A DNA stretch of 41,904 nt, from the NCBI GenBank assembly GCA_001600415.1, contig BCJX01000003.1, forward strand, positions 940,573-982,476, written 5' to 3'. The DNA comes from Pascua guehoae (lineage: Eukaryota; Basidiomycota; Tremellomycetes; Trichosporonales; Trichosporonaceae). This document shows, piece after piece, positions 12,159 to 13,156 of this stretch. The notes under the pieces were generated by a model. The model did not search any database, was not told the origin of the DNA, and worked only from the letters and a program-made list of their open reading frames with translations. Position numbers and translations under genes: made by a program. The stretch's first letter is position 1. The number at the start of each line of letters is the position of its first letter.

Positions 12159-13156
12159 CTAGTGGTTCATGTGCCGCATGCGATCGGGGTGCACGCCCGG
12201 ATTACCCGCAGGAGGAGGGCCCTGCTGCTGGGTAAAGTGGGGCGGTGGGGCGCGGCCTTGCTGGGGAGGAGGTCCGCCACGGGGAGGGAATGGTGGCATC
12301 GCTCCGCCGGGAGGGGGGAAGGGCGGCGCACCACCGGGCGGAGGGAAGGGCGGAGCGCCGCCCTGGGGCGGGAACGGCGGACGCCCTTGGAACGAGGGAC
12401 CACCGGGGGGTCCGCCGGGACCGCCGCCGCGCTGGGGAGGTCCAGGACCGCCTTGGAATGGAGGGTATCCTGGTGTGTTAGTGTGTTGCAAGGATGAGGA
12501 GCATGTGGGAACAGTTGGACAGAGCGCACAGGAGTCGCGAAGAGAGCACAACGCATCATGACTCTCTGGGCCGCAGCGCCCCCAGAAAAGGTGGGAGCCC
12601 CATCCAAGCATCGTACTCACCACCTGGAGCCGTCGCCAGAGGGTTCATGAAACCGGCACCGAGACGCATGCTGGGCGCGGCAAACATCTGCGCGCGGCCG
12701 CCACCCTCGTGCGTGTTGGCAATGTGGTCAATCATGTGCTGCGTGCGGTCGGTGCCGAGGTTGGCAAAGTAGTCGCGCACGTTTGCGACATGATTACGAC
12801 CCGAGTTGTGCGCTTTACGCGCGTTCATCGAGTCGTGGGTCCTAGATGGGTTAGCACACGCCAACTGTCATGTTGTGGGCGACTTACAGGTAGCTGTGTC
12901 GGGTCAGCATGCGCTACAAGAATCATGACCCAACTTACATGTCACAATAAGTGTCATGCCAATCCACCGCCGCCAGGAAGGATGAGGTCGTTGTCAACCG
13001 AGGAGGGGAACAGTCACAACAAGACAGGCAAAGGCATGTCACGAATCGGGAGGGCGATCGGATCGAGGGAGGAAGCGCAGACAGGGCGGCAAAGGGCAAT
13101 GTCAGCATTCAGCTAGTGCAACCACACGATACTTATTCGCAGTAGTACTTGCCCAT
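12159..13156 (-). CDS. YHC1: U1 snRNP protein C
   Basis: Exons 13156-13137, 12950-12939, 12893-12888, 12841-12621, 12469-12159 give 189 aa. The matrin-type zinc finger is complete: MGKYYCDYCDIYLTHDS, with C6, C9, H24 and H30, followed by [19 protein letters not shown]. The rest is a Pro/Gly-rich tail (PPFPPPGG repeats) as in other U1-C proteins. U1-C stabilises pairing of U1 snRNA with the 5' splice site (family knowledge). Introns 2-4 are GT-AG (45, 46 and 151 nt). Intron 1 (12951-13136, 186 nt) has no GT-AG solution: it reads ATAAGT...GACAC, an AT-AC intron, and only this join restores the DYCD of the finger. Exons 2 and 3 are micro-exons of 12 and 6 nt. Identity is certain; the intron 1 boundary is strongly argued but unverified. 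Confidence 0.93.

Follow-up and report, generated by a model that had tools for sequence, protein, structure and literature searches.

The first intron of the U1-C gene of Pascua guehoae appears to begin with AT and end with AC. Our best explanation is that it is a type II AT-AC intron, U2-type in character and removed by the major spliceosome, and we put the probability of this reading, which is drawn from sequence, at about 0.76. U2-type AT-AC introns are very rare, with examples in sodium-channel genes (PMC2831892) and suspected cases in C. elegans (PMC3033335).

The window, that is, the whole stretch of DNA analyzed, comprises 41,904 nt of assembly GCA_001600415.1 (contig BCJX01000003.1, positions 940,573-982,476 of the forward strand). 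The gene lies on the minus strand with five exons and four introns (Table 1), and its product, U1-C, is the protein that helps in the recognition of intron starts and steadies U1 at the exon-intron junction. Once the AT-AC intron 1 and the GT-AG introns 2-4 are removed, the frame is open throughout the 189 aa of the product. The assignment of the gene to U1-C, made in the original prediction, is borne out by a full-length match to Pfam zf-U1 (residues 1-38 to profile positions 1-38 of 38; 70 bits, cutoff 22) and by matches of the predicted product to U1-C chains in the PDB (best E 3.4e-16). Besides the N-terminal zf-U1 finger, the product shares the THDS and GR.H stretches with human U1-C, and it starts with MGKYYCD where the human protein has MPKFYCD. 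This is the only U1-C locus found in the 33.6-Mb assembly, and it is otherwise intact.

Table 1 Features of the U1-C gene and of its first intron (positions in the window)
Feature	Positions	Strand	Description
Exon 1	13137..13156	minus	ATG...TACTGCGA; MGKYYC and first two bases of codon 7
Intron 1, AT-AC, 186 nt	12951..13136	minus	ATAAGTATCG...GGCATGACAC; ATAAGT...GACAC
Donor ATAAGTAT	13129..13136	minus	Contiguous match to usual U1 5' end at +2..+8
AG-free tract, 162 nt	12951..13112	minus	From last AG of intron 1 to AC end
CTGAC, candidate branch site	13101..13105	minus	A at +35 (13102), 152 nt from end
TTGAC, rival branch site	12993..12997	minus	A at +143, 44 nt from end inclusive
Exon 2, 12 nt	12939..12950	minus	TTATTGTGACAT (T TAT TGT GAC AT)
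Intron 2, GT-AG, 45 nt	12894..12938	minus	GTAAGT...CACAG; CTGAC close to 3' end
Exon 3, 6-nt microexon CTACCT	12888..12893	minus	
Intron 3, GT-AG, 46 nt	12842..12887	minus	GTAAGT...CTAG; CTAAC close to 3' end
Exon 4	12621..12841	minus	Remaining finger and region after finger
Intron 4, GT-AG, 151 nt	12470..12620	minus	GTGAGT...CCAG; CTAAC close to 3' end
Exon 5	12159..12469	minus	Pro/Gly-rich tail up to stop TAG

Two features of the surroundings are of interest in their own right. Tiny exons of 12 nt and 6 nt follow one another (12950-12888, minus strand) amid introns of 186, 45 and 46 nt, and may well be overlooked by gene predictors. Furthermore, the open frame that comes next downstream, likewise on the minus strand (11889-10996), matches NTR2, Nineteen complex-related protein 2 (PF15458, 109.5 bits, cutoff 27), a spliceosome disassembly factor. 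U1-C and NTR2 seem to be two splicing genes in tandem.

The AT-AC junction of intron 1 is well supported by the DNA. Joins from exon 1 to exon 2 were enumerated for single introns of at least 30 nt, with the donor within 119 bases of the ATG and exon 2 kept in frame. This gave 1,081 open joins, among which GT-AG and GC-AG ends were both absent (0/1,081 each), in agreement with the earlier statement that no GT-AG solution exists, while AT-AC and GT-AC ends occurred six times each. The finger motif M....C-x2-C-D was kept in 13 of the open joins; six of these add 24 residues, and the remaining seven are sliding registers of the 186-nt join. Just one of the 13 has a recognized terminal pair, which is AT-AC, and its product starts with MGKYYCDYCD, carrying D7 and Y8 as in human U1-C. 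The boundaries and the ATAAGT...GACAC termini put forward for the intron were recovered, as was the claimed restoration of the finger residues C6-D7-Y8-C9 by joining 13137 to 12950.

AG occurs in intron 1 only at +4 and +23, and an exon that starts past either of these, read in the exon 2 frame, meets a TGA. Retention of the intron, in turn, closes the frame after seven residues (GAA TAA). In a 242-kb genome sample (466,700 non-N bases with both strands counted), ATAAGT was present 21 times on the two strands; rough arithmetic, taking 1/16 for AC and allowing for seven sliding registers, gives a chance of about 2 in 100,000 for a coincident ATAAGT-AC.

Several other arrangements were considered and rejected. 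Nested (twin) introns or an extra microexon within intron 1 fail on reasoning, as C6 would be lost with any GT or GC donor and the intron has no AG past +24. Editing of the A at +1 to I could create a GT, but the AC end would remain. On the minus strand from 16000 to 12500, a search for further copies of exon 1 or of TAYTGY returned just the two known ones, and the AG-free tract scored negative as coding sequence in all frames. An Rfam scan of the window gave no match.

The donor, CGA/ATAAGTAT with the slash at the junction, matches the usual U1 5' end at -3 and from +2 to +8, with mismatches at -2, -1 and +1. For comparison we used 92 introns predicted under a looser setting, a stricter first setting having given one; these are unverified predictions (GTRNG donors, YAG ends, <250 nt) with visible false ones among them, and all fractions derived from them are rough. 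A near branch site, defined as YTRAY 6-17 nt from the 3' end, was found in 45/92. AT at +7 and +8 is present in three of the 92 and in one of the 45 with a near branch site, and two of these 45 have the contiguous 7-base match to U1. The computed U1 duplex of intron 1 has an energy of -4.4 kcal/mol, compared with -5.5, -5.4 and -10.6 kcal/mol for introns 2, 3 and 4, and a G at +1 would bring intron 1 to -7.5 kcal/mol. Donors weaker than that of intron 1 occur in 8/45 predicted introns with a near branch site. By duplex energy, the intron 1 donor is weak, yet not far under those of introns 2 and 3, because the intronic pairing partly offsets the loss at the junction.

The U1 snRNA gene was not found in the whole genome with the Rfam model or with three sequence patterns, and the U1 of Pascua guehoae may be divergent. 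A variant U1 able to pair with the A at +1 was also sought: three 11-nt matches, including ATACTTATCTG, were recovered while U1 itself stayed unlocated, and none of them coincided with an Rfam U1 at E values up to 5; five looser matches gave no Rfam hit at E values up to 1. The ATACTTATCTG match (L027, 1501-1511) is a U1-like 5' end that could pair with A at +1, has no Rfam U1 around it, and is probably due to chance.

Intron 1 also differs from its neighbors in the position of its branch-site motifs. It contains a single CTRAC, the CTGAC with its A at +35, and two YTRAY sites altogether, the second being TTGAC. Measured from the 5' end, the candidate branch A lies where those of introns 2 and 3 do (+35 and +37, respectively). 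Measured from the 3' end, the A of the CTRAC motif in introns 2-4 is 11, 10 and 9 nt away (inclusive), and each of the three has a YTRAY in the interval of 6-17 nt from the end, where intron 1 has none. The absent near branch site counts against an ordinary intron, and the branch-to-end distance of the CTGAC candidate would be far outside the usual range.

What intron 1 does have is an extended run free of AG, at whose 5' edge a branch-site motif is placed. The gap from AG to AG across the acceptor is 179 nt, the next AG being at the donor of intron 2, and gaps of at least 179 nt account for 30 of 26,816 in the genome sample (its own gap included) and for 1.4% of bases. With 58 C, 48 T, 37 G and 19 A, the tract lacked AG in 96 of 20,000 mononucleotide shuffles, and its lack of AG is in part due to base composition. 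Among the 92 predicted introns, none is free of AG over at least 160 nt before its terminal AG, although just 21 reach a length of 150 nt. The tract folds no better than shuffled sequence (z -0.85, 40/200), and neither does the whole region (z -0.48, 58/200). Downstream of +35, and within the AG-free tract as a whole, the CAC at 12953-12951 is the only YAC. Between this terminal CAC and the AC of the CTGAC motif itself there are six further ACs (five GAC, one AAC), and the choice of CAC would rest on an inferred preference for YAC.

Given the rest of the best explanation, branching at CTGAC (+35) is moderately favored. A U2-type AT-AC intron that branches instead at TTGAC (+143), or at a poor nearer site such as TGGAT (A 13 nt from the end), is possible though clearly less likely, and it overlaps our best explanation in everything except the branch site. 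Distances of 44 or 13 nt would come nearer to the 7-12 nt range that holds 39 of the 63 predicted introns with YTRAY. However, TTGAC sits inside a weak predicted hairpin, TGGAT lacks the T of YTRAY, and neither site explains why AG is absent all the way back to +23. The hairpin, selected after inspection of the fold, has z -2.23 (5/200) over 39 nt and z -1.56 (13/200) over 47 nt, and is refolded in a 77-nt stretch.

The assignment of intron 1 to the major spliceosome draws on its donor, which was originally described as U2-like and not U12-like. ATAAGT carries +4A, +5G and +6T and matches the U12 5' consensus RTATCCTTT at four of nine positions; in the sodium-channel AT-AC introns of the U2 type, +5G is reported in all, and +4A or +6T has been proposed to improve U2 recognition (PMC2831892). 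The original description of the donor is upheld by these features. The U12 branch consensus TTCCTTRACY is matched at no more than seven of ten positions, the best copies being those at +67, +101 and +106; the U12 motifs are given as ATATCC and CCTTAAC in PMC3033335. A degenerate U12-type AT-AC intron removed by the minor spliceosome is very unlikely on this evidence, even though AT-AC ends are common among U12 introns. One survey reports RNA genes of the minor spliceosome in just one fungus, Cutaneotrichosporon oleaginosum (PMC7072748), which is why we keep this alternative at low weight; in another, the number of minor introns in some fungi is described as surprisingly high (PMC10639083).

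Searches for the minor-spliceosome components themselves gave weak negatives. Of the minor snRNAs, they covered U6atac, U12 and U4atac, none of which gave a match in the genome, with silent controls and with U1 missed too. PF18036, which covers the U11/U12-25K protein, gave no match either, again with silent controls. U6 was found twice, with its ACAGAGA box, by the same kind of search as for the minor snRNAs. The two U6 genes (at L024 and at L025, 1619-1501, minus) lie on different contigs with equal scores and identical aligned letters, and their 119 bases exceed the 105 model positions mostly near the 3' end.

Two further explanations would do away with the AT-AC intron altogether. Only two base differences separate its ends from GT...AG, and a sequencing or assembly error, or a strain-specific mutation, could hide a true gene that is GT-AG here. 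We consider this unlikely: two substitutions would have had to arise independently, 185 bases apart, and jointly yield AT-AC at one locus in an otherwise intact gene, and the AG-free tract and the match at +7 and +8 fit a weak, real site. The lack of a near branch site would also be odd for a GT-AG intron and would persist if GT-AG were restored, so it does not favor an error, which leaves it unexplained. Alternatively, exon 2 may not be used as drawn, with intron-retained or alternatively started transcripts giving U1-C another N terminus. An ATG at 13108, inside intron 1, does open a frame into exon 2 with 57 aa to the stop. This frame scores as non-coding, however, and lacks C6 of the finger; 13108-12939 (minus) has scores of -14.6, -14.3 and -13.3 in the three frames versus +6.8 for exon 4. 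Under this explanation, which is extremely unlikely, the U1-C-like start in exon 1 would have nothing to preserve it.

A wider search for similar introns was also carried out. None of the 21 ATAAGT in the 242-kb sample qualified as a further AT-AC candidate, with a near CTRAC and 75-nt coding flanks as criteria; intron 1 itself would fail this screen, and among GT-AG candidates it passed only 7 of 45 GTAAGT. No confirmed relatives were found in two contig collections, one of genomes and one of viruses, neither of them fungal.

If intron 1 is removed by the major spliceosome, U1 would pair with the donor through +2 to +8, and U2 would mark the A of CTGAC (+35) or, less probably, that of TTGAC (+143). 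The A at the first position and the C at the last would stand in for the usual terminal G-G contact. The 3' end would be the first YAC past the AG-free tract, with no AG to compete. Retention would lead to a 7-residue dead-end peptide, and intron 1 would in this manner gate U1-C expression.

Human U1-C touches only the pre-mRNA backbone, from -2 to +3, and improves the competition by some mismatched donors, +1C and -1C among them (PMC4383343). The mismatches of the intron 1 donor at -2, -1 and +1 fall within this human footprint, and a dependence of its splicing on U1-C is plausible for that reason. A +1A donor is absent from the oligonucleotides of Table 2 of that paper as shown, and is reported to have severely affected the melting of the duplex in work that it cites (PMC4383343). 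It is possible that removal of intron 1 depends on U1-C itself. If U1-C aids this removal, low U1-C would lower U1-C further, which is positive feedback and not a homeostat. The sensor role proposed in the original prediction would be self-reinforcing in sign rather than homeostatic. In its full form, the idea would be a self-gate: with the mismatches at -2, -1 and +1 lying directly beneath the U1-C zinc finger, intron 1 could be spliced only by U1 particles that have U1-C bound beforehand. U1-C expression would then be a self-reinforcing switch, and the AC acceptor, cleared of AG and far from its branch site, would add a second slow step. We regard this as tentative and rather unlikely.

Individual elements of intron 1 have counterparts in known systems. 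With the U2-type AT-AC introns of SCN4A and related sodium-channel genes it shares the AT-AC ends and +5G (PMC2831892); unlike them, it lies in a fungal U1-C gene, has no near branch site, contains a 162-nt AG-free tract and is followed by two tiny exons. In C. elegans, whose genome is thought to be without U12 machinery, at least 42 AT-AC introns are suspected to be real (PMC3033335). The likeness to these suspected U2-type introns is one of AT-AC termini. Annotated fungal genomes contain fewer AT-AC than CT-AC introns (PMC7072748). The branch motif in the 5' part of a long AG-free stretch resembles the distant branch point exons with an AG exclusion zone described by Gooding et al. 2006, where the branch lies 100-400 nt from the 3' site, in the 5' part of the stretch that lacks AG, and AG is normal farther upstream (PMC1431707). 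Those exons, however, are human, have AG acceptors and are known mostly from alternative splicing, whereas intron 1 ends in AC and its branch site is a candidate.

Splicing factors that read their own supply offer a further parallel. In HeLa cells, the U1-C level is sensed by the gene of another U1 snRNP protein, whose transcript is spliced to an unproductive form (PMC3798272). There, however, the target is U1-70K, the event is an alternative 3' site and the feedback is restoring; U1C mRNA was reported as unchanged after U1-70K knockdown (PMC3798272). The USSE of U11-48K and U11/U12-65K likewise lets the splicing machinery sense itself via odd splice sites in its own genes, but it belongs to the minor spliceosome, uses tandem U12-type 5' sites as an enhancer and is conserved in plants and animals (PMC3584512). 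Among the titles and abstract starts that we searched on AT-AC, U2-type, fungal and SNRPC, a collection that mostly excludes subscription journals, there was no report of an AT-AC intron in a U1-C gene.

As a whole, intron 1 places a +1A donor in the very gene that encodes U1-C, and it would be a natural test of whether U1-C tolerates such a donor or is needed for it. An annotation restricted to GT-AG introns would misread the start of the U1-C gene. If the distant branch site and the AG-free tract are right, intron 1 would furthermore show, in a fungus, a 3' site chosen by scanning that stops at an AC.
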